64,000 nt of DNA, from positions 62,001 through 126,000 of the forward strand of contig NZ_CAKASL010000003.1 of the NCBI RefSeq assembly GCF_916858655.1, in the 5' to 3' direction. The DNA comes from Aeromicrobium sp. Leaf350 (GTDB lineage: Bacteria; Actinomycetota; Actinomycetes; Propionibacteriales; Nocardioidaceae). Position 1 is the first letter of the stretch; each line of letters starts with the position of its first letter. The notes under the pieces were generated by a model. That model saw nothing but the letters and a program-made list of their open reading frames with translations. It made no database searches and was not told the origin of the DNA. The position numbers and the translations under genes were made by a program. Below are positions 14,837 through 30,655 of this stretch, piece by piece.

Positions 14837-17155
14837 TCAGGGGCTGGAGGTGGAGGGTGCGCCCGTCACGATGTCGAGTGCGTCCGAGGCGAACTGTCGG
14901 ATGGTCGCGGCCGGTGGCATCGTCGCGGCGCTGAAGTCGGGCTTGGTGTCGTGGTGGAACAGGTTGGCAAACGTCGCGATGCGGCGCAGCTCGGCGACCA
15001 GGCCGGTCGCATGACTCAGGCGTGACGAGTGCTCGGCGTCCTCGATCTGGGTGATGGCCTTTCCGAGCATGACGTCAGACGTGATCATGCCGGGGAAGCG
15101 TCGATGCAGGTAGCCCTCGAGCAGGGGCCGGATGGCCTGTCCCGCTGCGAGGCGCTCGCTCTCGGACGGGTGGCTGCAGAATCGATCGACGGTCCGGAAG
15201 TTCTGCATGTAGGTCGACTCGCACACGCGGTCGAGGTCGGTGGCCACGAAGGTCGTGTAGTCGTCGCCGCTGATCCCGAGTGCCGCGACGGTCGGCGGGT
15301 GGTCGCGGTCCCGCTTGGTGAGGGAGGTCCGCAGGTCCCGGAGCAGGTGCGCATCGTGTGACATCACGATCAGCTGCCCGACCGAGGCCGAGAGCTCGTC
15401 GATCGCCATGATCGTCGTCTCACGGCGGCCGCGGTCGAGGCTGCACACCGGGTCGTCGAAGACGACGACCTTGCTCGCCGCTGCTGGATCGGCCTGGATC
15501 GACGCGAGGAAGAACGCCAGCGCCAGCGTGCGCTTGTCCCCGTCGCTCAGGGCGATGTCGAACGACAGGCCCTCGTCCTTGTCGTTGGGCTTGATGCGGC
15601 GGCCGCGCAGCTCGAGCACGTACTCGGTCTGACCGAGGCGCCCGCCGACCCAGGTCGTCGGCATGTCGGGGATGCGGAACCGCGCGCCGAGCTGGGCGAG
15701 CAGGACGTTGGTCGCGTCCCGGTACGCCGCCAACGTGCTCGACATGGCCGCCGCGAGCTCCTGGCGTGCCTCCTTCTTCTGGTCTCCGGCCTCGGCCAGC
15801 GCTGTGGTCGCCGTCTCGAGCTGCCGGACGATCTCGCGGACGGGTTCCCGATGCCTGGCCCTGGTCAGCCTGAGTCGGTCGAGCAACAACTGGCACGACT
15901 CCGTCGTGACGTCGCCCAGCTCCTCCTGGTACCGACGGATCTCGGCCACGTTCGCGTCGATGTGCGCATTGACCGAGCGGACCATCTGGAGGATCGAGGT
16001 CCTCGCCCGGGTCGCTGCAGCGCGCCGTTCCGGCTCGTCGATCGAGGACCCGAGTGCAGACCGCTTGGCGGCCACCAGGGCCCGCACCTGCTCGCGCGCC
16101 TCGTCGACGTGTTGGGCGAGGGCGGCCTCGTCGAGCTCCAGCTCCGGGAGGTGGACGTGCTCGTTCCACGACGTGAAGGTGGCGCGCTGGGTCTCGACGT
16201 GCGTCACGACCGCGGCGACTGCGGCGGCGGAGAGCGCGGCCTCGAGCTCGCCCGCCACGGTGGACAGCTCGTCGGCCAGCGCCGCGTAGGCGTCGTCGAA
16301 GTACTCCCGATAGGCCTGCAGCAGGGGCAGGTCGACCGTGGGCTGAGCGCAGAACGGACACGTCTCGTCGTGCTGGAGTGCGAGCCCTCGCCGGACCCAC
16401 GCCTCGGCGCCCTCGTCGTCGAGGCGGCGCAGGTGCGCGTCGACCATGACGGCAGAGGCGGCGTGGTCGTGGAGCATCGCGAGGTCGCGATCGAGCACGC
16501 CGAAGAGACGGTCGAGGTCGAGCGTGGGTTCGGGGATTGCCTCACCGACCGGGCGGCGCAGGATCTCGGCCTTGCGCCGAGCATGCGTGAGGCGTTCCTC
16601 GGCCTTGGCGATCTTGGCATCGATGTCGGCATCGTGGTCCAGGGCCACGAGGTCAGGCACGCTCATCGTGCCCGCGTGCTGCTTCAGTGCTGTTGTGGCC
16701 GTGTCTCGCGCTGCCTTCGCCGTGCTCTCGTCGGTGTTGGCGGAGTCGAGCCGGCCCTGCGCGGCGACGGCGGCGGCGCCGAGCGCGAACTGCAGGAGGT
16801 TGCGGCGGTGATCGGCGGTCACGAGCCCGCCGGAGTGCACCGTGCTCCGCACGAAAGCCGTGTCGAACACAAGGATCTCGGGACGGGTCTCCGACCACGC
16901 GCCGTCCTCGAAGGTGACGTGGTTGCTCTGGTCGAGCTCGAGCTCGATGACCTGCGAGCCGTTCGCGTCGATCGTCGTGCGGCGCTGCACCGGGTCGGGG
17001 TCGCCGGACGCGACCGATCGCAGGATGGTGCACAGGGTCGACTTGCCGCGGCCGTTGTCGGCGTACAGCAGGGCGGTGCGGCCCAGGGGATGCCGACTCC
17101 ACCGGGCGTCGGCGAACAGTCCGACGTTCTGGATCGAGACGAACTTCTTCAGCAC
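14837..17155 (-). CDS. RloC-like AAA ATPase with zinc-hook CxxC (AAA_13 type)
   Basis: 772 residues. The N-terminal ATPase half has Walker A NGRGKST (34-40). Long helical arms carry a CPFC zinc-hook candidate at 266-269. The second ATPase half has an ABC-like signature LSDGDK (536-541), Walker B VVVFDDP (563-569) and a switch His (IVMSHDAH). A C-terminal domain of about 150 residues follows with Arg676-x3-Glu680 and FHHD (733-736). The architecture resembles Rad50-like RloC/PrrC proteins, in which the C-terminal domain is an anticodon nuclease of HEPN type. Whether this C-terminus is a nuclease is not certain. It is read from GTG 17155 with a weak ribosome site, alone on its strand, with an inverted repeat about 100 bp upstream. 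Candidate for phage defence or DNA repair. Confidence 0.75.
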   Translation of the reverse strand: MLKKFVSIQNVGLFADARWSRHPLGRTALLYADNGRGKSTLCTILRSVASGDPDPVQRRTTIDANGSQVIELELDQSNHVTFEDGAWSETRPEILVFDTAFVRSTVHSGGLVTADHRRNLLQFALGAAAVAAQGRLDSANTDESTAKAARDTATTALKQHAGTMSVPDLVALDHDADIDAKIAKAEERLTHARRKAEILRRPVGEAIPEPTLDLDRLFGVLDRDLAMLHDHAASAVMVDAHLRRLDDEGAEAWVRRGLALQHDETCPFCAQPTVDLPLLQAYREYFDDAYAALADELSTVAGELEAALSAAAVAAVVTHVETQRATFTSWNEHVHLPELELDEAALAQHVDEAREQVRALVAAKRSALGSSIDEPERRAAATRARTSILQMVRSVNAHIDANVAEIRRYQEELGDVTTESCQLLLDRLRLTRARHREPVREIVRQLETATTALAEAGDQKKEARQELAAAMSSTLAAYRDATNVLLAQLGARFRIPDMPTTWVGGRLGQTEYVLELRGRRIKPNDKDEGLSFDIALSDGDKRTLALAFFLASIQADPAAASKVVVFDDPVCSLDRGRRETTIMAIDELSASVGQLIVMSHDAHLLRDLRTSLTKRDRDHPPTVAALGISGDDYTTFVATDLDRVCESTYMQNFRTVDRFCSHPSESERLAAGQAIRPLLEGYLHRRFPGMITSDVMLGKAITQIEDAEHSSRLSHATGLVAELRRIATFANLFHHDTKPDFSAATMPPAATIRQFASDALDIVTGAPSTSSP

Positions 17156-17257: not shown

Positions 17258-17289
17258 CGAAAACTTGTCATGCGCGTGACAAGTTTTCG
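17258..17289. promoter_or_regulatory. AACTTGT-N8-TGACAA inverted repeat, copy 1
   Basis: CGAAAACTTGTCA and TGACAAGTTTTCG are perfect 13-bp arms with a 6-bp spacer. The site lies about 103 bp upstream of the RloC-like ATPase start and just past the end of the PucR operon. It is the most symmetric of four copies, and could be an operator or the terminator of the minus-strand operon. Confidence 0.65.
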
Positions 17290-17294
17290 CTGCG

Positions 17295-18305
17295 TCAGGT
17301 CCAGCGGGCCAGGGGGAGCATCAGGGCCGCGGGGAGCGCGAGGACGCTGGCAACCGCGGCGAACACCTCGGGCGAGCCGGGCGGGGCGAGCAGGAGGGAG
17401 CCTGTTCCCGCCGCCGCGACCACCAGCACGCCGAGGCGCATCGCGCGGAGCCGAGGTCGGGCGCCGCGGAGGAGCCGCAGGACCGCTGCGACGTGGTGGA
17501 TCGCCACGTCCTCCATCGCGACACCGGCCGATCGGGTGGGGAGGCGGTCGCTCACGGCGGCACCGGCGGCGCTGCGAAGGTCGAGAGCCGTGGACGACCT
17601 CGCCACGACGACGGGGTCGGTGCCGTCCTCGAGCGTCGGGCCGTCGCGCACGACCGTCGCGCAGGGCACGGCCGCAGACAGATGTCGTACGGCAGCGTCG
17701 CTCGGTGCGACGAGCACGACCCGCCAGCCGTCGGCCACGAGCGACGCCACGGCTCCCGGCGCCTGGTCGCGCACGGGGTCGGCAACCGTGAGGCTGCCGA
17801 GCGCGCGGCCGTCGACCTCGACGGCGACGACCTGGTGCCAGCCGTCGTCCGGCGGTCGGTCGAGCCCGATCCACTCCGAGGCTCCGACACGTACCGGGTG
17901 GCGGTCGACCCTCCCTGCCGTGCCGAGACCGGGAACGTGCTTCACCTCCGTGGCTCCGCCACGGGCGGACAACCGTGAGATCGCCCGGGCCACGGGGTCG
18001 TCGGCGCCGTGCTGCAGCGCGCCGGCGAACCAGCGGAGGCTGCGGTCGTGCTCGGGGTCGATCGGTTCGACCCCGACGACGCGGAGCTCGCCGACCGTGA
18101 TCGAGCCGACCGGGTCGACCACGAGGGTGTCGCTGCGAGCGAACGCATCGAGAGCGCCGCGGCCCACGAGCCGCGTCCGGGAGTCGCCCGAGCGGCGGTG
18201 GATGGACGCGTGCAGGATCGGCCGGGCCGACCACCACGCGATCGCCGCCGCGACGACGATCGCTGCCGCGGCCAGCACGCTGGTCAGGCTCAGGAGGCCC
18301 GTCAT
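17295..18305 (-). CDS. P-type-ATPase-derived membrane protein lacking the phosphorylation motif
   Basis: 336 residues. One N-terminal helix (VLAAAAIVVAAAIAWW), then a soluble region matching the P and N domains of heavy-metal P-type ATPases, then two C-terminal helices. The phosphorylation loop is DTLVVDPVGSITVGE (DKTGT in active pumps). The SEHP-type nucleotide motif is GADDPVARAI, VPGLGTAGRVD is kept, and LTVADPVRDQAPGAVASL continues into APSD where pumps have TGDN. The CPC transport site and first helices are missing. Key Lys and Thr residues are lost, so transport is unlikely. The ATG at 18305 overlaps the PucR stop, so the two are translationally coupled, suggesting a sensor partner for the regulator (inference). 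Confidence 0.72.
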   Translation of the reverse strand: MTGLLSLTSVLAAAAIVVAAAIAWWSARPILHASIHRRSGDSRTRLVGRGALDAFARSDTLVVDPVGSITVGELRVVGVEPIDPEHDRSLRWFAGALQHGADDPVARAISRLSARGGATEVKHVPGLGTAGRVDRHPVRVGASEWIGLDRPPDDGWHQVVAVEVDGRALGSLTVADPVRDQAPGAVASLVADGWRVVLVAPSDAAVRHLSAAVPCATVVRDGPTLEDGTDPVVVARSSTALDLRSAAGAAVSDRLPTRSAGVAMEDVAIHHVAAVLRLLRGARPRLRAMRLGVLVVAAAGTGSLLLAPPGSPEVFAAVASVLALPAALMLPLARWT

Positions 18306-19510
18306 GCCTGCTCCGACGTCTGGAACCGCTCGAAGTCGCTCTGGTCGCCGGCCTTCCACAGCGGCACGCTCGCCTTGAGCACCATCGTGATCTGGACGGT
18401 GAACTCGGGCTCGCGCAGCGCGTCGCCGAACAGCTCGTTGATGCGCTTCCAGCGGTACCGCACCGTCTGCGGGTGCACCCCGAGGTGGGCGGCGATCGCG
18501 GGCGCGCTGTCGCGGGTCTCGAGCCACACGAGCAGGGTCTCGGAGAGGATCTCGCGGGAGTTGGGCGACTCGGCGAGCAGGGGGCGCAGCTGCTCCTGCA
18601 CGAGGGTCTGCCGCAGGGAGGGCTCGGCGTGCAGCCAGATCTGGGTGAGGTGCTCCGCCGTGTCGACCACGCGGGAGTCCGCGACGATGCCGCGCTGCAC
18701 GAGCTGCAGCACGCGACGGCTCCAGCGTGCGGCAGCGGGGATGCCGGCGGGTGTGGCTGCCGTGGCCAGGCCGATGCGTCCGGTGCCCGCAGCGCGGACG
18801 GCGTCGACGACCTCGCTCCGCAGGCGGGCGTCGGCCAGGACCACCAAGCGGTCACCGTCGCGCACGACCAAGGTGTCGCGCCCGAGCGCCGTCAGGTCGG
18901 GGCGTTCGTCGTCGGGCAGCTCCACGACCGCGACGAGGACGGACTGCGGCACGAGCCAGGCCTCGCGGTCTGCCGCGGTCGGCGACACCCCGGTCAGCAG
19001 GGCTTCGGCCAGTCGCGCCCGGGCCCGCGTCCCGTCGTGGTCGCGCTGCTGCACTCCCTCGGCGTGGCCGGCGTCGGCCTCGGCCACGAGGTGGTCGGCG
19101 AAGGCGATGACCGTGTCGGCGAGGTCCTGGCGCACGGGTCGCGCCGGCTGGCCGTCGGGCTGGAGACGGTGCAGGAACCGCCACGAGCACGAGACCGCGA
19201 TCTGCACGGCGGCCCGCAGGTCCGACATCGAGTGTCCGGCGCGCGCCTCTGATCGACCGAGGGCGTGGAACAGCTCCTCGACGCCACGATCGGGGTGCGG
19301 AGAGGCATCGAGCGCGTCGAGGAAGCGGTGGAGAGCGGTGCTCACCGCCTCGTCGAGCACGCGCCGGATCGTCGTGAGGGCGTACCGGGGGATCTGGGCG
19401 CGCACCTCGCGCGTGATCGTCACCGCGACCTCCGGGACCTGCCTCCGGACGGCGCGAGCACGCTCGGCGGCGCGGTCGGGCGGCTCCCCGGGCGGCGGAG
19501 TCGACGTCAT
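18302..19510 (-). CDS. PucR/CdaR-type transcriptional regulator
   Basis: About 402 residues. A helical N-terminal part (RAQIPRYALTTIRRVLDEAV) and a GGDEF-like central part (RLVVLADARLRSEVVDAVR) lead to the C-terminal helix-turn-helix of the PucR family (SAPAIAAHLGVHPQTVRYRWKRINELFG). ATG 19510 is preferred because similarity to the neighbouring paralogue begins shortly after; GTG 19603 would add 31 residues. It overlaps the next gene by 4 bp. A second, frameshifted copy lies upstream. It could bind the AACTTGT-N8-TGACAA repeats (untested). Confidence 0.82.
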   Translation of the reverse strand: MTSTPPPGEPPDRAAERARAVRRQVPEVAVTITREVRAQIPRYALTTIRRVLDEAVSTALHRFLDALDASPHPDRGVEELFHALGRSEARAGHSMSDLRAAVQIAVSCSWRFLHRLQPDGQPARPVRQDLADTVIAFADHLVAEADAGHAEGVQQRDHDGTRARARLAEALLTGVSPTAADREAWLVPQSVLVAVVELPDDERPDLTALGRDTLVVRDGDRLVVLADARLRSEVVDAVRAAGTGRIGLATAATPAGIPAAARWSRRVLQLVQRGIVADSRVVDTAEHLTQIWLHAEPSLRQTLVQEQLRPLLAESPNSREILSETLLVWLETRDSAPAIAAHLGVHPQTVRYRWKRINELFGDALREPEFTVQITMVLKASVPLWKAGDQSDFERFQTSEQA

Positions 19511-19658
19511 CGCCGCCCGCGCCAGCTCGTGCCACTGACCATGCCCTGACCCCCATCCGGACGGCGCGCCGCGGCTCACATCATCTGCCCGAGGAGCGGG
19601 CACTCCGCAACGACCCGAGCGCGCCTCGAGGGTCGTGGGAGGCGTCGTTCTGCCGTGC

Positions 19659-20914
19659 TCAGTCGAGCTCGCGGCGCCAGCGGGGCATGGCCGACTCGAG
19701 CGCCGTCAGCAGGGCGGCCGCCTGCTTGGGGTCGTCGAGGCGGTCGCGGAACATGAAGCGCAGCTTCCGCAGCCGTCCGTAGGCCGTCTGGTGGTGCACG
19801 CCGAGCCGGTCGGCCAGCGCGGCTGCGCTGTCGCCGGTCTGCAGCCACACCATCATCGTCTCGCCGAGGATCGCGCGTCGCTTGGCCGTCTCCAGCGTCA
19901 GGGGCGCGAGCATCTCGTGGTCGATGCGTTCGCGGAGCACGGGGTCGGCGTGCAGGCTCAGGTCGAGCTGGTGCTGGTCGACGTGCACAACACCGTCGGC
20001 GGGCACGGGGATCTTCTCGTCGAGGGCGAGCCGCAGGAGCCGCAGGGCCCAGCGCGACGCGTGGTGGGCGTCGGCGGTGGTGACGCGGCCACTGACGGCG
20101 ACGACGGCGCCGCCGCTGCCGAGTGCCGCAGCGACGTGCGCCGCCACCTCGGGTTCCGCGGCGACGAGGAGGTGGCGTCCGTCGGTCCCCGACAACGCCA
20201 TCGGGTGGGCCTGGGCGATCGCCCGCGCCCGCTCCGTCGGCAGGGAGACCGCCACCACCAGCTGCTCGGGAATCGGCCATGCCGCGGCGCGGGACAGAAG
20301 GGCCAGCCGCCTCGGCGACTCCCCACCGACGACGGCCGTGAGCAGGGCCGGGCGTGGATCGGGGTGCCTCGGTCGGTCGCCGGCGGAGAACCCCAGGCTG
20401 GCCTGCTGCAGCAGCTGCTCCTGGAAGGCGAGGAGCGTCTGGGCCAGCTGACCGACGACGTCCTGGCCCAGGTCGAGCTCTGTGGCGGCGTCGCGGAACT
20501 CCGTCCACGCCTCCTGGGTCGCGATCTGGTGTGCGGCCCGCATGGCGTCGAGGTCGTGCCCGGCCCGCGCCTCGAGGAGGCCGAGGTCGCGGAAGAGGGC
20601 GGCCGCGTCGTGCCCGCGCACGGGGCGCCGGCGAGCGCGTCGGCGAACAGCTCGACGGCTCGGGAGATGGCGAGGGACACCGCCTCGTGCTGGGAGGGGC
20701 CGGAGAAGGCGACGACCTCGGCCCGTACTCGCGTCGCGATGCGATCACCGAGCTGCGGCGCCCTGCGGCGCGCCACCGCCACGGCGGCCTCGTCGAGACG
20801 GGGGAGGTCGGCGAGCGAAGCCACCAGGGCGCGCGACGGGTCGCGGCCCGCTGTGCGCCCCGGCCATCGGCGCTGCCCTCGTGTCCGGTCCTCTGCGTCG
20901 AACAGCACGGTCAT
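19659..20914 (-). pseudogene. PucR-type regulator interrupted by a one-base frameshift
   Basis: The N-terminal part is read from ATG 20914 (GGGGGAGG 6 bp upstream; MTVLFDAEDRTRG...ISRAVELFADALAGAP). The rest is in another frame from about 20621 (RGHDAAALFRDLGLLEARAGHD...) to the stop at 19659, ending with the helix-turn-helix SAAALADRLGVHHQTAYGRLRKLRFMF. Alignment to the intact paralogue at 18302-19510 runs across the junction, which falls at a G4 run (20622-20625), so one base appears missing. It may be an inactivating mutation, a homopolymer sequencing error, or a fragment starting at GTG 20621. The rest of the coding sequence looks unmutated, which favours a recent event or an error. Confidence 0.75.
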
Positions 20915-21038
20915 GTCGAACCTCCCCCGGATCGTGCTGGGTCGGTCGTGTCCGGCCGGCCCATCCCTCGGGGTCAGTCAACGGTCGCGCGGTCGTCGAG
21001 GTCGATACCCGACGCCACATCGGGCCGAAATTGGGTCA

Positions 21039-21067
21039 GAACTTGTGACCCGCATGACAACTTTTCG
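21039..21067. promoter_or_regulatory. AACTTGT-N8-TGACAA repeat, copy 2
   Basis: GAACTTGT-gacccgca-TGACAACTTTTCG lies about 125 bp upstream of the ATG of the frameshifted PucR gene (minus strand) and downstream of the XRE gene. Same spacing as the other three copies; no other feature was seen in 20915-21094. Confidence 0.6.
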
Positions 21068-21094
21068 CGAGCTGCCAGGTGACTCGGTCGCGTG

Positions 21095-21307
21095 TCAGTC
21101 CTGGAGGAGGCTGAGCGGAGGGACGCCGAGCAGGCGCGCGAGCTGCTCGACGGAGGCCAACGAGAGGTTACGCTCGCCGCGCTCGATCGAGCCCAGGTAC
21201 GTGCGGTGGAATCCGAGCTCTGCGGCCAACGCCTCCTGGCTGAGGCCGAGCTTGAGCCGGTGCTCGCGCACCTTGCGGCCGAGGGTGATCTGCAGCTGGG
21301 ACGTCAC
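21095..21307 (-). CDS. Small XRE-family transcriptional regulator
   Basis: 70 residues, almost entirely one HTH_3 domain: LGRKVREHRLKLGLSQEALAAELGFHRTYLGSIERGERN, with the recognition helix around HRTYLGSIERG. There is no sensor domain, as in C.BclI-like or phage-type single-domain repressors. GTG start at 21307. About 40 bp upstream is the box ACTGATGAGTATCAC, also found near 21871 and 25502, which would suit autoregulation and control of neighbouring genes. Confidence 0.85.
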   Translation of the reverse strand: MTSQLQITLGRKVREHRLKLGLSQEALAAELGFHRTYLGSIERGERNLSLASVEQLARLLGVPPLSLLQD

Positions 21308-21345
21308 GCCAGCACTCTGGACTTCCGCTACGCATAGGTCTACAG

Positions 21346-21360
21346 ACTGATGAGTATCAC
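21346..21360. promoter_or_regulatory. ACTGATRAGTAKCAC box, copy a
   Basis: ACTGATGAGTATCAC with a palindromic core ACT-N4-AGT. It lies 39-53 bp upstream of the XRE gene start and overlaps the last bases of the DUF6907 gene. Confidence 0.5.
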
Positions 21361-21662
21361 GACTCGTCGACCTCGAGCAGGGCCCGAGCGACGCGGCGCG
21401 CGCTCTCGGGGCTCAGGTGGAGGTGCTGGCCGTCGCGCGAGGCCCCGCCGATGAACACCCACGCCTCGGTCGCGCCGACGGCACGCGTGATCGTGACGTA
21501 CAGCTCGGCGCCCGGGTCGGCAGGCGTCGTGACGGAGACCGCCGTGGCGGCGCTCTCGTGCACCCGGTCGTCGGGCAGGTCGGTCTCGTGGTGCGTGACT
21601 CGACACCACGTCGGGCACGGTTCCCGCAGCCAGGAGGGGCGGGGCGAGTCGTCAGCGTTCAT
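21357..21662 (-). CDS. DUF6907-type small protein
   Basis: 101 residues starting at ATG 21662 with GAGGA 4 bp before it. The Cys-rich motif EPCPTWCRVTHHETDLPDDRVHES is the hallmark of the actinobacterial DUF6907 family. It is followed by a predicted beta-rich part (LYVTITRAVGATEAWVFIGG) and a helix (SPESARRVARALLEV). Function unknown. Cys and His spacing suggests metal binding. It ends 49 bp before the XRE gene on the same strand and probably shares a transcript with it. Confidence 0.75.
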   Translation of the reverse strand: MNADDSPRPSWLREPCPTWCRVTHHETDLPDDRVHESAATAVSVTTPADPGAELYVTITRAVGATEAWVFIGGASRDGQHLHLSPESARRVARALLEVDES

Positions 21663-21870
21663 GGGTCCTCGGGTCGTGCGGTGTTCTGAGTGACGGTAGG
21701 TCCGCCCCCGGACAGCCCTCGTCGAGCGCGTCAGTGCCTGTGGACGGAGCAACGGCGCGGCGCCGGCCCGCCGGTTCGGGCGTCCGACGGGCCGGTCCGG
21801 CCGGGGTGGCGCTCGCGCCCCCACCGGCCACTGCCGACGAACCGCTCCGTCATGACGGTCGAGCGACGAT

Positions 21871-21885
21871 ACTGATAAGTAGCAC
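21871..21885. promoter_or_regulatory. ACTGATRAGTAKCAC box, copy b
   Basis: ACTGATAAGTAGCAC, 13 of 15 bases as in copy a and 14 of 15 as in copy c (inverted at 25502-25516). It lies about 40 bp from AACTTGT repeat copy 3. Confidence 0.5.
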
Positions 21886-21925
21886 AATGCGATCGACTCG
21901 GCGTGGGTGAAGCCCGGAACGCCAG

Positions 21926-21954
21926 GAACTTGTCACCCGACTGACAACTTTTCG
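21926..21954. promoter_or_regulatory. AACTTGT-N8-TGACAA repeat, copy 3
   Basis: GAACTTGT-cacccgac-TGACAACTTTTCG, about 135 bp upstream of the first secreted-protein gene. Its first 22 bases reappear exactly, in inverted orientation, in copy 4 at the other end of the secreted-protein cluster. Confidence 0.65.
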
Positions 21955-22088
21955 ACCCATTCGGGCGCTTCGAGCCTCGGGTCCTTGCGACGTGGTGAGT
22001 GGCGGCGGCTCAATGACGGCGTCGGCACGTCCTGTGGTCTGACTCACAGCCGACCGACGTCCTTCCGTCACCCACCCAGGAGCTTCCC

Positions 22089-22802
22089 GTGAAGACACGC
22101 ACCTCCACCCGACGCGGCTCGCGGCTCGTCGCCGCAGCGGTCGCGGCACTGACCATGGCCCTCCTGGCGCCGACCTCGCCGGTCCACGCCGAGGAGCCGA
22201 ACCCGACGTTCTCGCTCACCTACGACGCCTCCGGCAGCACCACGATCGGCGCCAAGGTCAACGCCTCGATGCCCGTCGGGCCCACCACCCTGACGGCGAC
22301 TCTCGACCTCGCCGACCAGCGCATTGCGGGTGGAGACCTCGCGATCCCCAGCCAGGTGCTGGACTTCAGCATCTTCGGCATCCCGACGCGCGCGACCGTG
22401 ACGATGACCCAGGTCGGCGAGGTCACCGGAACGCTGGAGGAGACCGCGAAGCGTGGTGACCTCGTCCTGACCGCGAACGTCGACTACGACATCAAGATCA
22501 GCAACCTGCAGGCCCGCGTGTTCGGCATCTGGTGGCCGCTGGCGGTCGGCAGCAACTGCCACACGGTCAAACCGGTCGACGTCACCGTGAAGTCGCCCGC
22601 CGGGGAGTACTTCCGCACCCTGCGAGGCGGGAAGGTGGCCGGCAGCTACACGATCGGCAGCTTCACGGGCTGCGCGCCGCTGAACTTCCTCAGCATCCCG
22701 TTCTTCTTCCCAACCTTCGGGTCGGTGCCGATCAACTCGATCGTGCCGGGCAGCAACAACACGCTCGAGCTCCAGATCTCCAACCCACGCCCCAGTGCGT
22801 GA
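22089..22802 (+). CDS. Secreted protein of unknown family (family A)
   Basis: 237 residues with a Tat/Sec-like signal (RRGSRLVAAAVAALTMALLAPTSPVHA) and a predominantly beta-strand mature part (TLTATLDLADQRI, RATVTMTQVGEVTGTL). Two Cys residues (GSNCHTVKPVDV and FTGCAPL) could form a disulfide. The second half (KISNLQARVFGIWWPLAVGSNCHTVKPVDV) resembles the protein at 24284 (SISDLVIDGVPVDVGESCSTVEPVQL), so they appear distant homologues. The GTG start has CAGGAG 6 bp upstream. It is first of four secreted proteins just before the mce operon. Confidence 0.75.
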   Translation: MKTRTSTRRGSRLVAAAVAALTMALLAPTSPVHAEEPNPTFSLTYDASGSTTIGAKVNASMPVGPTTLTATLDLADQRIAGGDLAIPSQVLDFSIFGIPTRATVTMTQVGEVTGTLEETAKRGDLVLTANVDYDIKISNLQARVFGIWWPLAVGSNCHTVKPVDVTVKSPAGEYFRTLRGGKVAGSYTIGSFTGCAPLNFLSIPFFFPTFGSVPINSIVPGSNNTLELQISNPRPSA

Positions 22803-22895
22803 GGGAGGTGCGCCGTTCGGGGGCGCACGCACGACGCCGGGCTCGGCCACGTGCCCGGTGGTTCCACCCCAACCCACAGTGAAGGAACTTCCGTC

Positions 22896-23540
22896 ATGAA
22901 GATCATGAACAGACGAGTGCTCGGCGGTCTCGTCGCCGCCGCAGCCACCACGGCCACCGTGCTGGCCATGTCCGGGCCGGCCCAGGCCACCAACCCCTAC
23001 ACGCCGGGCGGAGGCCCGGCTGCGGACTTCCGTGCCACCAACCTGACGTTCACCGACGTCGACGCGGGAGCCACGCTCGAGTGCGAGCAGGTCAACCTCG
23101 GCGGCTCCATCGTCAACCCGGGCTCGTCGCGGGCGCACTCGGCAGTGGCCGGTGAGCTCGACGACATCGAGGCGGTCAACTGCAACAACGACTACTTCGG
23201 CGCGACCAGCATCAACCTCACCGGCACCTGGGACTTCTTCGTGACGGGCGACCCGACTGGTGGCCTGTGGCCCGTCGAGCTGCGCGACGTCTCGGCCAAC
23301 GTGGCCGCCGTCGGGTGCTCGTTCACGGCGAAGGGACCCGGCGGTACCAGCGGCACGATCTCGGGCACCTTCAACCCGGTGACGCAGAAGTTCGCCGTGA
23401 CTGGCGACAACCTCGAGGTCAACAGCGCGGTCGGAAGCTGCTGGATCATCGGTGTCGGCAACGGCAACGACGTGGAGGTCGCGGGCACGTGGACCAACGT
23501 GCCGCCGGCAGGCAACTCGCCGTTCAGCCTGACGCACTGA
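22896..23540 (+). CDS. Secreted protein of unknown family (family B, copy 1)
   Basis: 214 residues. Signal peptide cleaved after AQA (VLAMSGPAQA); the mature protein starts TNPYTPGGGPAADF. Four Cys residues and a likely beta-sandwich (INLTGTWDFFVTGDPTGGLWPVELRDVSANV, then GTISGTFNPVTQKFAVTGDNL). It ends SLTH. About half of its residues match the next gene product. RBS GAAGGA about 9 bp before the ATG. No enzyme motif was seen; it could be a lipid- or glycan-binding protein, but that is a guess. Confidence 0.75.
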   Translation: MKIMNRRVLGGLVAAAATTATVLAMSGPAQATNPYTPGGGPAADFRATNLTFTDVDAGATLECEQVNLGGSIVNPGSSRAHSAVAGELDDIEAVNCNNDYFGATSINLTGTWDFFVTGDPTGGLWPVELRDVSANVAAVGCSFTAKGPGGTSGTISGTFNPVTQKFAVTGDNLEVNSAVGSCWIIGVGNGNDVEVAGTWTNVPPAGNSPFSLTH

Positions 23541-23553
23541 TCGGACATTGCTC

Positions 23554-23595
23554 CGCGTCTGTCCCGGTGTCGCCGGCGACACCGGGACAGACGCG
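23554..23595. terminator. 42-nt perfect palindrome between the two family-B genes
   Basis: The sequence reads the same on both strands over 42 bases, giving a 19-bp stem (outer arm CGCGTCTGTCCCGGTG) with a CCGG loop. It starts 13 bp after the stop of the first family-B gene. No T-tract. It is probably a terminator or attenuator that lowers expression of the downstream pair. Confidence 0.7.
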
Positions 23596-23646
23596 GTCGG
23601 TCCCGCGACTCCAACCTCGATCCCCTCGACCCTCCAGAGGAGCACC

Positions 23647-24282
23647 ATGAACCCGTTCGCAACTCGCCCCATCCGGGCCATGTTGGCGGTTGCCCTGGCC
23701 GCCGCAACGCTGCTTGGGACCACCCAGGCGGCCCAGGCGGCTGACCCCTACACGCCGAGCGGCGGCCCGGAGATCGATCTCGTCGCCGAGGGGGAGGTCG
23801 TCGTCACGGACCTGGACGCCGAAGCGACGTCGGAGTGTACGGCGCTGCCCATCGCGGGGGCGCTGGAGGACGCCGGCGTCCCGCGTCCTCACTCAGAGCA
23901 TGCAGGAACGCTCGACGACTTCAGCGGCGATCTCTGCTCCCATGACTACTTCGGTCTCACCGCCATCGACTTCGGTGGTGCGTGGGACCTGGTCGTGACC
24001 GGCGACCCGGTGGGACCGGTCTGGCCGGTCGAGGTGCGCGGGGTGAGTGCATCGGTGGCCTGGGTCGGCTGCAACTACAAGCTCGTGGGACCTGGACCCG
24101 GCGGCACGATCTCGGGTCACTTCAACACGGCCACGCAACAGTTCACATCGACTGGCGCCGATCTTCAGGTGCAAGGCGTGAGGGGATCGTGCTTCATCAT
24201 CGGCATTGCTGACGGCAACCGGGTGACGATCGAAGGCACGTGGACCAATGTTGCCGCCGCTCCGCTCGAGCTGAGTCACTGA
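23647..24282 (+). CDS. Secreted protein of unknown family (family B, copy 2)
   Basis: 211 residues, paralogue of the preceding gene. Signal peptide to AQAA, mature start DPYTPSGGPEIDL; shared blocks include YFGLTAIDFGGAWDLVVTGDP, WPVEVRGVSASVAWVGC and GTISGHFNTATQQF. Cys positions are mostly conserved and the end ELSH matches. AGAGGAG lies 5 bp before the ATG. It is followed after 1 bp by the last secreted gene, so those two are in one transcript. Confidence 0.75.
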   Translation: MNPFATRPIRAMLAVALAAATLLGTTQAAQAADPYTPSGGPEIDLVAEGEVVVTDLDAEATSECTALPIAGALEDAGVPRPHSEHAGTLDDFSGDLCSHDYFGLTAIDFGGAWDLVVTGDPVGPVWPVEVRGVSASVAWVGCNYKLVGPGPGGTISGHFNTATQQFTSTGADLQVQGVRGSCFIIGIADGNRVTIEGTWTNVAAAPLELSH

Positions 24283-24283
24283 G

Positions 24284-25438
24284 ATGCGCGGACGTCTCGA
24301 GCGGCCGGTCCTCCTCGCAGTTCTGATCCTGGTCGGGGCGGTAGCCCTGCCGGGGAACGCAGCGCCGGTCGAGCCAGATGCACCCGCACCGGGAGTCGTT
24401 GAGCCCGGCGCGCAGGAGCTCGCCGCAGCAGGCACACCAGGTCGCGAGGATCTTCCCGAGCAGCCGATCTCGACCCGCTACGGCATCGCGACGGCGACCC
24501 AGAACGCGGTCGCGAGGACCGCGAAGATGTCGCTCACGATCGGCCCGGAGTCGCCGCTCTGGACCATGATCTTCTTCCCGCTGTTCTCGCACCCAGTGGA
24601 GAACCCCACGACAGGTGGCACGGTCGTACGGGTGCCCTATCCGTTCTTCCAGCCGCCCTGTGCCGTCAACGAAGCCACTCGCAAGCAGGCCAACTACTTC
24701 CGGGGTGCGATCTACCCGATGCGGCCCATCGCGGGGGGCGGCGGTGCAGTGGGCGTTCTGGCCGAGATGTCCGTCAATCTGGTCGCCTTCGGGTCCATCC
24801 CGGCGTCGGCCACGGTCACCATGACGATGGCCCGCGAGAACGGCGAGGTCGTGCCGCTCATCACCCATCAGTGGAACGCCATCAACGCCGGCAGGTTTGG
24901 TGGGTGCGATACCACGTACCGTGCGCCATCCACGGCGATGGTGGAAGGTCCCGTCGAGCTCAGCATCAGCGACCTGGTCATCGACGGAGTGCCGGTAGAC
25001 GTCGGTGAATCCTGTTCGACGGTCGAGCCCGTTCAGCTGCAAATGTTCAACGAGGACGACTACAGCCCGACCCAAGGCGGCTCCCTTTCGGCGAGGGATG
25101 GTCTGCGCAACGGGACGCTCTTTCCGCTCAACTCGCCGTTCTACTTCAAGGACAACGGGAGGGAGATCCCGTCATCAACGGGGATCGACATTCCCGCGTT
25201 CACGGGGTGTCGAGGCGGCGGGGACGACCTGAGCCAGATCGTGACGTCGTTGGCCTCGGGCCCGAACAATCCTGTCCGTGTCCGGCAGGGGCATCTGGTC
25301 ATCCGTGCGTCGATCGACGTGGCACTGGCCAATCTGGCCGGATGCACGGACGACCCCGACGAGACCCATATTCTCTGCCCCCTCCCGGCTCCGGCGACTC
25401 CGCCCATGCCGCCGCTGCCGGACGGTGAGGGGCCGTAG
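24284..25438 (+). CDS. Secreted protein distantly related to family A
   Basis: 384 residues with an N-terminal signal (LLAVLILVGAVALPGNAAP) and a Pro-rich C-terminus (CPLPAPATPPMPPLPDGEG). The central part (FGSIPASATVTMTMARENGEV) and the CSTVEPVQL region match the family A protein at 22089, but it carries extra segments and at least six Cys residues. It starts 1 bp after the preceding stop. It is the last gene before copy 4 of the repeat and the mce operon. Confidence 0.7.
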   Translation: MRGRLERPVLLAVLILVGAVALPGNAAPVEPDAPAPGVVEPGAQELAAAGTPGREDLPEQPISTRYGIATATQNAVARTAKMSLTIGPESPLWTMIFFPLFSHPVENPTTGGTVVRVPYPFFQPPCAVNEATRKQANYFRGAIYPMRPIAGGGGAVGVLAEMSVNLVAFGSIPASATVTMTMARENGEVVPLITHQWNAINAGRFGGCDTTYRAPSTAMVEGPVELSISDLVIDGVPVDVGESCSTVEPVQLQMFNEDDYSPTQGGSLSARDGLRNGTLFPLNSPFYFKDNGREIPSSTGIDIPAFTGCRGGGDDLSQIVTSLASGPNNPVRVRQGHLVIRASIDVALANLAGCTDDPDETHILCPLPAPATPPMPPLPDGEGP

Positions 25439-25457
25439 GGCTCGGGCGTCCCGAGCA

Positions 25458-25486
25458 GAACTTGTCAGTCGGGTGACAAGTTCTCG
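25458..25486. promoter_or_regulatory. AACTTGT-N8-TGACAA repeat, copy 4
   Basis: GAACTTGTCA-gtcggg-TGACAAGTTCTCG has near-perfect arms, 118 bp upstream of the mce operon ATG. Read on the minus strand, it contains the same 22 bases as copy 3. Confidence 0.65.
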
Positions 25487-25501: not shown

Positions 25502-25516
25502 GTGCTACTTATCCGT
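25502..25516. promoter_or_regulatory. ACTGATRAGTAKCAC box, copy c (inverted)
   Basis: GTGCTACTTATCCGT on the plus strand, i.e. ACGGATAAGTAGCAC on the minus strand (14 of 15 as in copy b). It lies 88-102 bp upstream of the mce operon ATG, next to repeat copy 4. Confidence 0.5.
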
Positions 25517-25603
25517 AGCGAAGTGACGGAACCCACACCTAGCATCGCGCCGGATGCACCGCAGACGGCGACAGCCGGAACACGAGGATCGGGGAGAGAT
25601 CGC

Positions 25604-27370
25604 ATGGGCGGAACGGTCGAGGTCGAGGGCCTCAGCAAGACGTACGGCAGCCAGAACATCTGGCACGACGTGACGCTGACGCTGCCGGCGGGCGAGATCA
25701 CCGCCTTGCTGGGGCCGTCGGGCACGGGCAAGTCGGTGTTCCTGAAGTCGGTCATGGGGCTCGTGCAGCCGGAGGCCGGCTCGATCCTCATCGACGGGAC
25801 GGACATGGTGCGCGCCACCGAGGCGATGCGGCTCGAGATGCGCAAGCGCTTCGGCGTGCTGTTCCAGGACGGCGCGCTGTTCGGCTCGATGAACGTCTAC
25901 GACAACGTCGCCTTCCCGCTGCGCGAGCACACGAGGAAGAGCGAGTCCGACATCCGCTCCATCGTGATGGAGAAGCTCGACATGGTGGGCCTGGTCGGCC
26001 AGGAGCACAAGGTGCCCGGCGAGATCTCCGGCGGCATGAAGAAGCGCGCGGGCCTGGCCCGCTCGCTCGTGACCGATCCCGAGATCATCCTGATCGACGA
26101 GCCCGACTCCGGCCTCGACCCGGTGCGCACGTCGAACCTCGCCCAGCTGCTGGTGGAGGTCAACGCCGCGACCGACGCCACGATGCTCGTCGTCACCCAC
26201 AACATCGAGCTCGCGCGCACGATGCCCGACAACCTCGGCATGCTCTACCGCCGCGAGCTCGTGATGTTCGGCCCGCGCGAGGAGTTCCTGCTGACCGACC
26301 ACCCCGTCGTCAGCCAGTTCATGAGCGGCGACCCCGAGGGCCCGATCGGCATGAGCGAGGAGGTCGACCACCGGCGTGACGAGCCCGTCGACCTCGGGCC
26401 CACCTACCCCGGCGGCACCTCGGTGCTCACCCGGCACTCGGGTGCGCGACCCGTCGAGGTGCTGCCGCGCCAGCTGACGCCGAAGTCGGGCCGGCCACGC
26501 CCGGCGGCCGACCGCCACCGCGAGCGCGTCTCGAGCGGAGCGGCCCAGCTGTACGTCGCGCCCGACGACGAGTCCGACCGAGCGCGGTCCCTCCCGCACA
26601 GGAACGTCGTCACCCGGGCCCTCACCGCGGTCGGCGACCTGTTCGCCCTCGCCCTCGACACCCTCCGCTCCACCTTCCGCCGACCGTTCGCCGTGCGCGA
26701 GCTGGTCGAGCAGTTCTGGTTCGTCGTCAGCGTCTCGTGGATCCCGGCGATGCTCGTCGCGATCCCGTTCGGCGCGGTCATCGCGCTGCAGCTCGGCACC
26801 CTCACCGTGCAGGTCGGGGCGCAGTCGTTCACCGGCGCGGCCAGCGTGCTGGCGGTCGTGCAGCAGGCCGCCCCCATCGTCACGACGCTCGTGATCGCTG
26901 GGGCCGGAGGCGCAGCCATCTGCGCCGACCTCGGCTCGCGCCGCATCAAGGACGAGATCGACGCGATGCGGGTCATGGGCATCGACCCCGTGCGCCGCCT
27001 CGTCGTCCCGCGCGTGATCGCCTGCGTGCTCGCCGCGGTGCTGCTGAACGGCCTCGTCTCGGTGGTCGGCGTGATCGGCGGCTACTTCTTCAACGTCGTC
27101 GTGCAGGGCGGCACGCCTGGCGCGTACCTCGCCTCGTTCACCGCCCTCGCGCAGATCTCGGACCTGTGGGTCGGCGAGATCAAGGCCGTGGTCTTCGGCT
27201 TCGTCGCCGGGGTCGTGGCTTGCTACCGCGGTCTCAACACCGCACCTGGGCCCAAGGGGGTGGGCGACGCCGTCAACCAGTCGGTCGTCGTGACCTTCCT
27301 GATGCTCTTCTTCGTCAACTTCGTGATCACCACGCTGTACCTCCAGCTGGTGCCGGGCAAGGGAGCCTGA
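25604..27370 (+). CDS. Mce ABC transporter: ATPase fused to YrbE permease
   Basis: 588 residues. Residues 1-260 are an MceG/MlaF-like ATPase: Walker A GPSGTGKS, Q-loop VLFQDGALF, signature ISGGMKKRAGLARS, Walker B IILIDEPDSGLDP, H-loop VTHN. A linker of about 85 residues follows. From about residue 345 a full YrbE/MlaE permease continues (VGAQSFTGAASVLAVVQQAAPIVTTLVIAG, the EIDAMRVMGIDP coupling motif and five helices). ATG 25604 has GGGGAGAG just upstream. The two functions are normally encoded separately, so this is a true fusion in one open frame. It powers import through the Mce proteins encoded downstream. Confidence 0.9.
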   Translation: MGGTVEVEGLSKTYGSQNIWHDVTLTLPAGEITALLGPSGTGKSVFLKSVMGLVQPEAGSILIDGTDMVRATEAMRLEMRKRFGVLFQDGALFGSMNVYDNVAFPLREHTRKSESDIRSIVMEKLDMVGLVGQEHKVPGEISGGMKKRAGLARSLVTDPEIILIDEPDSGLDPVRTSNLAQLLVEVNAATDATMLVVTHNIELARTMPDNLGMLYRRELVMFGPREEFLLTDHPVVSQFMSGDPEGPIGMSEEVDHRRDEPVDLGPTYPGGTSVLTRHSGARPVEVLPRQLTPKSGRPRPAADRHRERVSSGAAQLYVAPDDESDRARSLPHRNVVTRALTAVGDLFALALDTLRSTFRRPFAVRELVEQFWFVVSVSWIPAMLVAIPFGAVIALQLGTLTVQVGAQSFTGAASVLAVVQQAAPIVTTLVIAGAGGAAICADLGSRRIKDEIDAMRVMGIDPVRRLVVPRVIACVLAAVLLNGLVSVVGVIGGYFFNVVVQGGTPGAYLASFTALAQISDLWVGEIKAVVFGFVAGVVACYRGLNTAPGPKGVGDAVNQSVVVTFLMLFFVNFVITTLYLQLVPGKGA

Positions 27371-27371
27371 C

Positions 27372-28256
27372 ATGGCCGTCGCACCAGTCCCGCAGAGAGC
27401 CGGCGCACGCCGGTCGAGCCCGGCGCGTCCGTCGCTCGCGCGCCGCGCAGCCACGGCCCCGGTCGACCGGCTGGCCCAGCTGGGCGTCGGTCTGCGCTTC
27501 CACCTGAGCGTGCTCGCCGACATCCCGCAGGCGCTGCGCCACCACCCGAAGGAGATCCTGCGGCTGCTGTCGGAGGTCAGCTTCGGCACCGGCGCGCTGG
27601 CCGTCATCGGCGGCACGATCGGCGTGATGCTCGGCATGACGCTGTTCGTCGGCACCGTCGTCGGCATGCAGGGCTACGCGGCCCTCGACCAGATCGGCAC
27701 CGCGACGCTCAACGGCTTCATCTCGGCGTACTTCAACACCCGCGAGATCGCGCCGCTCGTCGCCGCCCTCGCCCTCTCGGCCACCGTCGGCTCGGGCTTC
27801 ACCGCCCAGCTCGGCGCGATGCGCATCAACGAGGAGGTCGACGCGCTCGACGTCATGGCCGTCTCGAGCCGCCGCTACCTCGTCACCACGCGGGTCATCG
27901 CCGGCTTCGCCGCGATCATCCCGCTCTACGTTATCGGCCTGCTGATGTCGTACGCCGGCTCCCGCATCGTCACGGTGTACTTCCACGGCCAGTCCGCCGG
28001 CACCTACGACCACTACTTCGAGCTGTTCCTGCCGCCCATCGACATCCTGCTGTCGTTCCTCAAGGTCATGGTGTTCGCGGTCATCATCATCCTGATCCAC
28101 TGCCGCCTCGGCTTCACGGCCCACGGCGGACCGGCGGGCGTCGGCATCGCGGTCGGCACGGCCGTGCGGCGCAGCATCGTGACTGTCGCCGTCCTCGACC
28201 TGGTGCTCTCGATGGCGCTGTGGGGCACCACCTCGACCGTGAGGATCGCCGGATGA
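27372..28256 (+). CDS. yrbEB: YrbE/MlaE-type permease (second Mce permease)
   Basis: 294 residues. An N-terminal tail and amphipathic segment (HLSVLADIPQALRHHPKEILRLLSEVSFG) precede the MlaE helices, with the conserved NEEVDALDVMAVSSRRYLVTTRVIAG coupling region. It pairs with the permease half of the preceding fusion to form the membrane channel of the Mce importer. The ATG is 1 bp after the previous stop. Confidence 0.92.
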   Translation: MAVAPVPQRAGARRSSPARPSLARRAATAPVDRLAQLGVGLRFHLSVLADIPQALRHHPKEILRLLSEVSFGTGALAVIGGTIGVMLGMTLFVGTVVGMQGYAALDQIGTATLNGFISAYFNTREIAPLVAALALSATVGSGFTAQLGAMRINEEVDALDVMAVSSRRYLVTTRVIAGFAAIIPLYVIGLLMSYAGSRIVTVYFHGQSAGTYDHYFELFLPPIDILLSFLKVMVFAVIIILIHCRLGFTAHGGPAGVGIAVGTAVRRSIVTVAVLDLVLSMALWGTTSTVRIAG

Positions 28257-29563
28257 GCGGGCCCGTGGTCGTCAAGAGCACCCGCACCGCCGACACGGTC
28301 TTCGGCGTCGCGTTCATCGGCCTGATCGTGCTGGGCCTGCTCGTCGCCGCGCTGGTCTACGACCGCGCGTTCGTCTCGAGCACCGAGGTCAGGCTGACGA
28401 CCGGCAGCGTCGGCAACGCGATGCAGAAGGGCTCCGACGTGAAGCTCAACGGCGTGCCGGTCGGCGTGGTCGAGGACATCGAGTCCACTGCCGACGGCGC
28501 GGTGCTGACCCTCTCGCTCAAGCCGTCGGTCGCCGAGAAGCTGCCGAGCGACACCGTCGCGCGGCTCCTGCCCAAGACCCTGTTCGGCGAGCGCTACGTG
28601 CAGCTGCTGGCCGACGGCGCCACGAGCGGCGACGGACTCGCGGCGGGCGACACGATCCGCCAGGACGCCTCCGACGAGGCCATCGAGCTGGAGCAGGTGC
28701 TCGACGAGCTGCTGCCCGTGCTCGAGGCGCTGCAGCCGCAGAAGCTCTCCGCCGCGCTGGGCGAGCTGAGCCTGCTGCTCTCCGGTCGCGGTGCCGACAT
28801 CGGCGAGTCGATGGAGCTGTGGGGCACCTATCTGACCCAGCTGCAGCCGTACGTGCCGCAGCTCGCCGACGACCTGGTCAAGCTCGGCCAGGTGGCGCGC
28901 ACCTACGAGGTCGCCGCGCCCGACCTGCTCGAGGCGCTGGACGACCTCACGGTCACCGCGAACACGATGGTGGAGGAGCAGGAGACGTTGACGACCCTCT
29001 TCGCGAACGTCGTCACGGCGTCGAACACGACCCGTGACTGGCTGCAGGTGAATCAGGGCACGATCATCACGCTCTCGGCCGAGAGCCGCTCGGCGCTGGC
29101 TGCTGCCGCGCCGTACGCGACGCAGTTCCCGTGCCTGTTCAAGGCCGTCGCCGACTTCGTCCCGACGATGGACACGGTGCTCGGCAAGGACTCCGCCGAG
29201 CCCGGCATCCACGTCACGCTCAACGTCGTGCCGACCCGCGGCGCCTATGCGTACGGGCCCGACAACCCGCAGTTCTCCCGCGGTGGTCAGGCTCGGTGCC
29301 CGTACCAGAGCAGCGCCGCCGGGAGCCCGGCCCCAGCGCCCGCCGCCGACACCCCGCCGGTCGTCGCGCCGCCACCCAGCCCCCTCGTCGCCGCCCAGGT
29401 CGCCGACGCGATGGGCCTCGGCGAGGTCAACTCGCCGGCCGAGAACCAGCTCATCGCCGAGCTCCTCGCCGGCGGCCGGGGCCTCGCCCCCGATGACTAT
29501 CCGGCGTGGTCCAGTCTCCTGCTCGGACCCGCCCTGCGCGGAACGGTGGTGACGGTCCAGTGA
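28253..29563 (+). CDS. mceA: Mce family protein, position A
   Basis: 436 residues: N-terminal helix (VFGVAFIGLIVLGLLVAALVY), MCE domain (VRLTTGSVGNAMQKGSDVKLNGVPVGVV, ERYVQLL), then a long helical region that builds the periplasmic tunnel with the other Mce subunits, and a Pro/Ala-rich end. Start at ATG 28253 inside the yrbEB stop (ATGA). Confidence 0.92.
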   Translation: MSGPVVVKSTRTADTVFGVAFIGLIVLGLLVAALVYDRAFVSSTEVRLTTGSVGNAMQKGSDVKLNGVPVGVVEDIESTADGAVLTLSLKPSVAEKLPSDTVARLLPKTLFGERYVQLLADGATSGDGLAAGDTIRQDASDEAIELEQVLDELLPVLEALQPQKLSAALGELSLLLSGRGADIGESMELWGTYLTQLQPYVPQLADDLVKLGQVARTYEVAAPDLLEALDDLTVTANTMVEEQETLTTLFANVVTASNTTRDWLQVNQGTIITLSAESRSALAAAAPYATQFPCLFKAVADFVPTMDTVLGKDSAEPGIHVTLNVVPTRGAYAYGPDNPQFSRGGQARCPYQSSAAGSPAPAPAADTPPVVAPPPSPLVAAQVADAMGLGEVNSPAENQLIAELLAGGRGLAPDDYPAWSSLLLGPALRGTVVTVQ

Positions 29564-30567: not shown

Positions 30568-30577
30568 GCACCCACCG

Positions 30578-30632
30578 CTGGTCGAGGTGCGAAGGCGCTC
30601 TGGCGCCTGAGCCTCGAAACCTCGGTCGGTCC
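30578..30632. repeat. GAGCCTCGAAACC repeat inside the mce operon
   Basis: GCTGGTCGAGGTGCGAAGG followed by GGCGCCTGAGCCTCG and AAACCTCGGTCGG. It shares 20 bases (GAGCCTCGAAACCTCGGTCG) with the copy at 6793-6845. The insertion widens the mceB-mceC gap to 88 bp, while all other gaps are overlaps. Confidence 0.75.
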
Positions 30633-30655
30633 ACGACAGCACAGGAGGTACACGC

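Follow-up and report, generated by a model that had tools for sequence, protein, structure and literature searches.

A candidate operator of PucR-type activators at mce lipid-importer genes of Aeromicrobium and other Nocardioidaceae

MabR (Rv2242), a PucR-type activator of fasII, binds the inverted repeat TTTTGT-N9-ACAAAA, and FasR (SCO2386) of Streptomyces coelicolor recognises highly similar repeats; long-chain acyl-CoAs raise the binding of MabR (PMC5541348). Other members of the family, GabR, AdeR and PutR, bind inverted repeats of 21, 24 and 17 bp, respectively, and the PucR proteins studied by 2020 are activators, the PucR of Bacillus subtilis being a repressor as well (PMC7652997). The element described here is an 18-bp palindrome found four times in a 64,000-nucleotide stretch of Aeromicrobium sp. 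Leaf350 (contig NZ_CAKASL010000003.1, positions 62,001 to 126,000), termed the window, near genes for PucR-type regulators, secreted-looking proteins and an mce lipid importer. From comparative sequence analysis, it very probably marks the regulon of a PucR activator of the MabR/FasR type that comprises the mce lipid importer, the secreted proteins and the regulators. To our knowledge, the regulation of mce lipid importers outside mycobacteria has been little studied, and no earlier description of this operator or of a PucR-controlled mce regulon was found in the open-access PMC literature.

The original prediction described four elements of the form AACTTGT-N8-TGACAA with the same half-sites and spacing. 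A pattern search of the window finds exact matches at 17262, 21040, 21927 and 25459, which is one to four bases from the positions first given, and none in 100 dinucleotide shuffles. On the opposite strand, two of these match as well, because both are near-perfect palindromes. The element is better described as an 18-bp palindrome that has the core TTGTCA-N6-TGACAA and A/T-rich flanks. Site 1 (17260..17287, core 17265-17282; all four sites are given without strand) is a palindrome with perfect arms, AAAACTTGTCA-N6-TGACAAGTTTT, and lies between an RloC-like gene and the gene of a membrane protein, W15. Site 2 (21040..21063) has the one-base variant core TTGTGA-N6-TGACAA at 21043-21060 and is upstream of a broken PucR gene, W17. 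Site 3 (21926..21950, core 21930-21947) is found between W19, on the minus strand, and the first secreted-protein gene, W20, on the plus strand, and site 4 (25458..25483, core 25462-25479) is upstream of the mce operon. The 22 bases that sites 3 and 4 were said to have in common in inverted orientation are present. Distances of about 100-135 bp to the start codons, as first proposed, were roughly right: measured from the core centre they are about 118 bp for the RloC-like gene, 137 bp for the broken PucR gene, 150 bp for the secreted-protein gene and 134 bp for the mce operon.

The longer palindrome ACTTGTCA-N6-TGACAAGT, with up to three mismatches, occurs at six places in the whole 3.5-Mb genome, four of which are the window sites; its reversed control occurs at two places. 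The exact core is found at five places in the genome, three of them in the window, and site 2 has one mismatch. High frequency genome-wide had been named as an observation that would speak against a regulon; the copies in the genome are few.

Conservation was followed in 37 loci of Nocardioidaceae that were picked by the transporter gene W24, an ATP-binding cassette (ABC) ATPase fused to an MlaE permease, and not by the motif. Among 197 sampled genomes of the family (numbered G; loci and stretches are numbered L), 36 have the fused W24 (37 loci) and 35 have only an apparently unfused form, as indicated by one stop within the match. From each locus, as much as 18.5 kb of upstream sequence was taken, the window supplying its own, for a total of 681 kb; contigs end early in G121, G074, G157, G149 and G070. 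With up to one mismatch, 104 sites are found, present in 35 of the 37 loci and all intergenic by the gene calls of a simple script (104/104), although intergenic regions make up 14.7% of the 681 kb. There are 61 exact copies, all with spacing 6 and none at spacings 0-5 or 7-15, and 119 permuted half-sites give a mean of 0.19 exact copies; the counts of 104 and 61 include the four sites of the window and some close relatives. Where a gene reads outward from the site, 98 of 103 sites are within 300 bp of its start, with a median of 149 bp.

The exact palindrome tracks the fused form of W24. It is present in 26 of the 36 genomes with fused W24, in none of the 35 with the unfused form only and in five of the 126 others (26/36 versus 5/161 for all other genomes, Fisher p 1.6e-19). 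Among the exact sites listed for 19 genomes with fused W24, 49 of 72 are within 25 kb of this gene; in 14 genomes counted first, by hand, the figure was 39 of 49 listed sites. Some listed sites more than 25 kb from W24 are on other contigs of fragmented assemblies. Conservation beside orthologous genes, as the original prediction anticipated, is thus found, and comparison among the loci shows a conserved regulon.

The left arm reads TTGTGA in 21 of the 104 sites, and the mirror form is seen in six. In the interval between W18 and W17, all six sites with up to one mismatch have the TTGTGA variant, site 2 included. It is possible that variant sites are read by particular PucR paralogues.

At the mce operon, the palindrome has a fixed relation to a probable promoter. 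With up to two mismatches, it is within 240 bp of W24 in 33 of the 37 loci, and in the remaining four another gene stands between the site and W24. An element CACACCTANNNT is common to most loci upstream of W24. In the window, TAGCAT (25540..25545, plus strand), within CACACCTAGCAT, is the -10-like element of the mce operon predicted from conservation, and the centre of site 4 is 69 bp from it. TANNNT is a form of actinobacterial -10 elements. Among the 33 loci, TANNNT is 80 bp from the operator centre in 20, 79 bp in one and 81 bp in two, and 69 bp in four and 70 bp in three; thus 23 loci are in a 79-81 bp group and seven in a 69-70 bp group that includes the window. TANNNT was not found at any other distance of 40-120 bp from the operator centre in these loci. 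In the scored loci, the operator is at varying distances, 126-202 bp, from the W24 start codon. Two operator positions one helical turn apart are expected of a DNA-bound activator, and the pattern therefore points to an activator site. Activation is indirectly supported by this geometry, a helical phasing upstream of a presumed -10 element, and by the regulator family.

Loci outside the Nocardioidaceae show a related palindrome. A scan with W24 found 59 loci; its closest matches are a partial fragment at 98% (L142) and two records at 92% and 89%, followed mostly by Aeromicrobium (82-84%). Ten loci outside the family have homologues of PucR and/or of the secreted proteins near mce genes, and these are from Actinacidiphila, Kutzneria, Kitasatospora, Streptacidiphilus, Thermomonospora, Actinomadura, Actinoallomurus and Actinocorallia. 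PucR homologues were called upstream in eight of the ten, that of L128 as two pieces. A search for recurrent palindromes in these loci gave one TTGTCA-N5-TGACAA, and this prompted a test of spacing 5. The form TTGTCA-N5-TGACAA is found six times exactly (six loci), nine times with up to one mismatch (eight loci) and 20 times with up to two (nine loci). Spacings 2-4 and 6-10 give no exact copies, at most one with up to one mismatch and at most four with up to two; spacing 6 has none at zero or one mismatch and one at two. None of 119 permuted half-sites matches the spacing-5 count at zero or one mismatch. The listed spacing-5 sites are all intergenic and are near homologues of W23, W20, W24 or W16 or near other genes. 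In the 26 mce loci that have no PucR match, there is no excess at spacing 5 or 6 (three and one hits, respectively, at up to two mismatches, where permutations average about 4). At two mismatches, 16 hits are found at spacing 4 and 11 at spacing 7, which is more than this average but far short of the permutation maxima of 73 and 55.

TTGTCA-N5-TGACAA is equivalent to TTGT-N9-ACAA, the core of the published MabR operator. The half-site therefore fits an experimentally established PucR operator, a likeness that is independent of gene neighbourhood. The half-site TTGT...ACAA is the same, and N9 is found in the loci outside the family as it is in MabR. A lipid context is also shared, and MabR and FasR are activators, as is proposed here. 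Differences from MabR and FasR are the extension of the half-sites to TTGTCA...TGACAA, the N10 spacing in the Nocardioidaceae, the proposed targets, which here are an mce importer and secreted proteins, the clusters with several sites and several PucR genes and the presence of a P-type-ATPase-like partner.

The window encodes one intact PucR-type regulator, W16 (18302..19603, minus strand; the start is uncertain, at 19423 or 19603). Its C-terminal PucR helix-turn-helix (HTH) domain, PF13556, is matched with an expectation (E) value of 5e-15 and 55.5 bits against a cut-off of 27. A profile of W16 matches the C-terminal structure of MabR, 9f80 (E 3.6e-13), over profile positions 209-375, reaching beyond the HTH. 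Regulators of the MabR/FasR type have an N-terminal non-heme globin domain and a GGDEF-like domain, and a Pfam search of W16 found neither. The recognition regions, VHPNTVRYRLKRI in MabR and VHPQTVRYRWKRI in W16, are near-identical. A second PucR gene, W17 (19659..20914, minus strand), is frameshifted into two overlapping open reading frames (ORFs) here and is uninterrupted in relatives.

PucR homologues were called in 36 of the 37 loci. In G136, G091, G097 and G103, one site separates W24 from a lone, divergently oriented PucR gene, and W15, W20-W23 or a second PucR were not called. The PucR proteins encoded beside W15 in 28 relatives, chosen by this adjacency and not by their own sequence, are on average 91% identical to that of the window in the HTH and 33% in the first 260 residues; the lowest single HTH identity is 36%. 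This replaces a first count (94% versus 34%, 26 relatives) in which the proteins were chosen by a string in the recognition helix. The recognition helix starts with QT in 60 of 62 cluster PucR proteins and with NT in one, and NT is found in the two other PucR proteins of the Aeromicrobium genome that have a readable helix. PucR as the binder is strongly supported by these comparisons, and W16 is most likely the protein that binds the palindrome.

In the mechanism proposed, a PucR-type activator of the MabR/FasR kind has the palindrome as its operator. W16 would bind it, and the paralogue W17, where it is not broken as here, and other PucR proteins of the cluster would read the same site or its one-base variant. 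In a dimer or a larger oligomer, a pair of PucR HTH domains would contact the two TTGTCA half-sites. Bound there in helical register, 69-70 or about 80 bp upstream of the -10-like element as measured from the operator centre, the protein would activate targets of three kinds, namely the mce operon for lipid import, secreted beta-rich proteins encoded nearby and the PucR genes themselves. As the example of MabR suggests, a lipid or acyl-CoA may serve as the signal, although this is conjecture, and the co-encoded W15 may modulate the regulator. If this is correct, PucR control of the MabR/FasR type extends from fatty-acid synthesis to lipid import, and shared control links the importer to secreted beta-rich proteins that are so far uncharacterised. 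With an operator defined and a candidate activator named, the proposal can be tested directly in soil actinobacteria.

Other regulators or other functions of the palindrome may be considered. It could be the operator of the XRE protein W18, or of some other unlinked factor, with the PucR genes as mere targets. W18 (21098..21307, minus strand) is a small predicted DNA-binding protein of the HTH_3 type encoded beside site 2, and PucR genes do often adjoin sites, as targets would. W18 is a patchy neighbour, however, called in 12 of the 37 loci by a simple script for genes and intergenic regions that could miss small genes such as this one; sites with up to one mismatch are present in 35 of the 37. 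No W18 homologue was found in the ten loci outside the family, yet nine of these have spacing-5 half-sites with up to two mismatches, and the half-site is that of a published PucR operator. The XRE protein, which the original prediction had put forward for binding assays, is disfavoured by this distribution, and an operator of W18 or of an unlinked factor is improbable. The same holds, with still less probability left to them, for intrinsic terminators or the ends of a small mobile element. In favour of these readings, site 1, downstream of W15, forms an inverted repeat of 28 bases with TTTT at its end, and sites 3 and 4 are inverted and bracket a gene cluster. A terminator scan that required five or more T residues in the tail flagged none of the four sites, and the closeness of 98 of 103 sites to gene starts, the fixed operator-promoter distances and the few copies per genome are not those of terminators or mobile elements. 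Both readings are rejected for the set as a whole by the positions of the sites, but site 1 could double as a terminator.

A PucR protein might instead hold the mce and secreted-protein genes off until released by a ligand. The B. subtilis PucR both activates and represses (PMC7652997), and MabR was first described as a repressor (PMC11617747). The operator is not over the promoter, however, but some 70-80 bp upstream of the -10-like element and in helical register with it, and MabR and GabR were found to be activators (PMC5541348, PMC7652997). Repression is thus unlikely, if less so than the alternatives above, and activation by a PucR protein is preferred.

Several observations weigh against a PucR activator regulon, and the possible loss of small genes such as W18 from the gene calls is one of them. 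The spacing in the Nocardioidaceae, TTGT-N10-ACAA, is one base longer than the N9 of MabR. W16 has no site directly upstream, and its transcription would need site 2, through the broken W17. Three PucR subtypes are present in the loci, and the pairing of site to subtype is ambiguous. The exact site is missing from 10 of the 36 genomes with fused W24, although all ten have a copy with one or two mismatches, and related genomes, e.g. G019/G083/G121 and G074/G080, are not independent. In G043, the divergent gene at an exact site resembles one for an oxidoreductase, and the stretch searched has no PucR gene; G043, G076 and G158 fit neither class of TANNNT distance. Two site-positive genomes without fused W24, G178 and G162, carry a W15 homologue, but in G178 the site is among other genes, about 18.7 kb away from this homologue, and G162 has no site with up to two mismatches in the 20 kb searched around its W15 homologue. 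Outside the family, one of the 119 permuted half-sites equals the spacing-5 count at two mismatches, L109 has a one-mismatch site and no PucR gene in the stretch searched, L137 lacks a site at up to two mismatches and has its PucR gene downstream of the operon start, and L114 has two-mismatch sites only.

The presumed targets begin with W24 (25604..27370, plus strand), the first gene of the mce operon, which encodes an ABC ATPase (PF00005) fused to an MlaE/YrbE permease (PF02405). A second permease and six Mce (MlaD) proteins follow (27372..35209, plus strand), so that the mce system extends from W24 to about 35209. Control of an mce operon by a dedicated regulator is known in the same bacterial family, that of KstR in Nocardioides simplex (PMC7593942). 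KstR differs from PucR and is a repressor, and the likeness is one of dedicated control. GabR of Corynebacterium glutamicum is a PucR activator that binds a pair of 21-bp inverted repeats preceding its target (PMC7652997). It differs in being a local regulator of one operon, for gamma-aminobutyric acid (GABA) catabolism, and is likened here by its published description.

Four secreted-looking proteins are encoded on the plus strand between sites 3 and 4. W20 (22089..22802), the first gene after site 3, encodes a beta-rich protein; its AlphaFold model is beta-rich with a mean predicted local distance difference test (pLDDT) score of 81, and a fold search gave no match at E <=0.001 and only weak beta-barrel matches, of which the top one was OmpW (E 0.13). 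W21 (22896..23540) has homologues in the loci and W22 (23647..24282) resembles it by eye. W23 (24284..25438) has homologues in 23 of the 37 loci and, outside the family, near sites with spacing 5. There is no Pfam match at E 0.01 for W20-W23, and no NCBIfam match for W20, W21 and W23. The label 'secreted' is based on signal-like N-termini seen by eye; a crude count of signal peptides, 32 of 50 target genes versus 183 of 403 'other' genes, is too blunt to use. W19 (21357..21662, minus strand), on the other side of site 3, encodes a DUF6907 protein.

W15 (17295..18305, minus strand) is a membrane protein derived from a P1B-type ATPase, and its gene overlaps that of W16 by a few bases. It is present in 27 of the 37 loci, in most of which a PucR gene is within 150 bp on the same strand (29 such PucR proteins). 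Its profile matches the CopA-type ATPase 3rfu (E 3.9e-29), and its predicted model (pLDDT 74) matches the fold of 4bbj (E 3.2e-12). W15 aligns over the last part of the P1B-type copper ATPase CopA and differs in being short, in being co-encoded with PucR and in having neither the phosphorylation motif DKTGT nor the hinge motif GDGxND. Neither motif is found in any of 28 W15 homologues, and the Asp of DKTGT is kept in 20 of the 28. W15 is probably not a pump, because these motifs are lacking. A conserved P-type-ATPase-like protein without catalytic motifs is a possible regulatory partner, but such a role is conjectural. Perhaps W16 and W15 are a new signalling pair in which W15 senses a lipid, metal or nucleotide state and gates the PucR activator. 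Tentatively, the activator would in that case switch on a lipid importer together with secreted accessory proteins, and paralogous PucR proteins that read one-base operator variants would form a small local network.

The gene that adjoins site 1 on the other side, W14 (14837..17155, minus strand), encodes an AAA_13 ATPase (PF13166, E 5e-39) and is the one termed RloC-like in the original prediction. The other 36 loci have no called homologue, and W14 is probably not an ancestral member of the regulon. In four relatives (G088, G083, G019 and G048), a further PucR gene lies behind a site that corresponds in position to site 1, downstream of the gene for W15; in G088, the site is exact, with one small ORF between it and W15, and is followed by the PucR gene (PF13556, E 6.2e-11) and a W11 homologue. 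G094, the closest relative by W24, has no site in the position of site 1. Site 1 therefore has the look of an operator kept from an ancestor and now facing another gene, and in the simplest history this genome would have lost the further PucR gene, which left the RloC-like gene beside its operator. Membership of the RloC-like gene in the regulon, which had been proposed, is thus unsupported, and the proposal of a single PucR-bound regulon is well supported by comparative evidence for the promoters of the PucR, secreted-protein and mce genes.

Additional repeats and remote sites were observed. The 12-mer GATAAGTAGCAC is found at 21874-21885 and, inverted, at 25502-25513, which is 44 bp from the core of site 3 and 22 bp from that of site 4, and does not occur elsewhere in the window at up to one mismatch. 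The pair possibly represents duplicated promoter segments or a second binding site. Direct repeats like GGTTACGAAAAGGTTACGA are seen by eye between operator and promoter in G064, G070, G021, G049, G091, G097, G074 and G080, and look as if a second regulator binds there. In the Aeromicrobium genome itself, a copy of the long palindrome with two mismatches and an exact 18-bp core, at C1:1742115 (L040:8001-8022), precedes a gene for a sigma factor resembling the extracytoplasmic function (ECF) type. A further exact site in G088 (L153:3183-3200) is found before a W9 homologue, outside the known part of the cluster. A remote site in G126 (L026:8001) precedes a single mce gene. One in G144 (L023:8001) precedes a mycothiol-S-transferase/lipoprotein gene pair, and the single mce gene of G126 is followed by a pair that looks similar.

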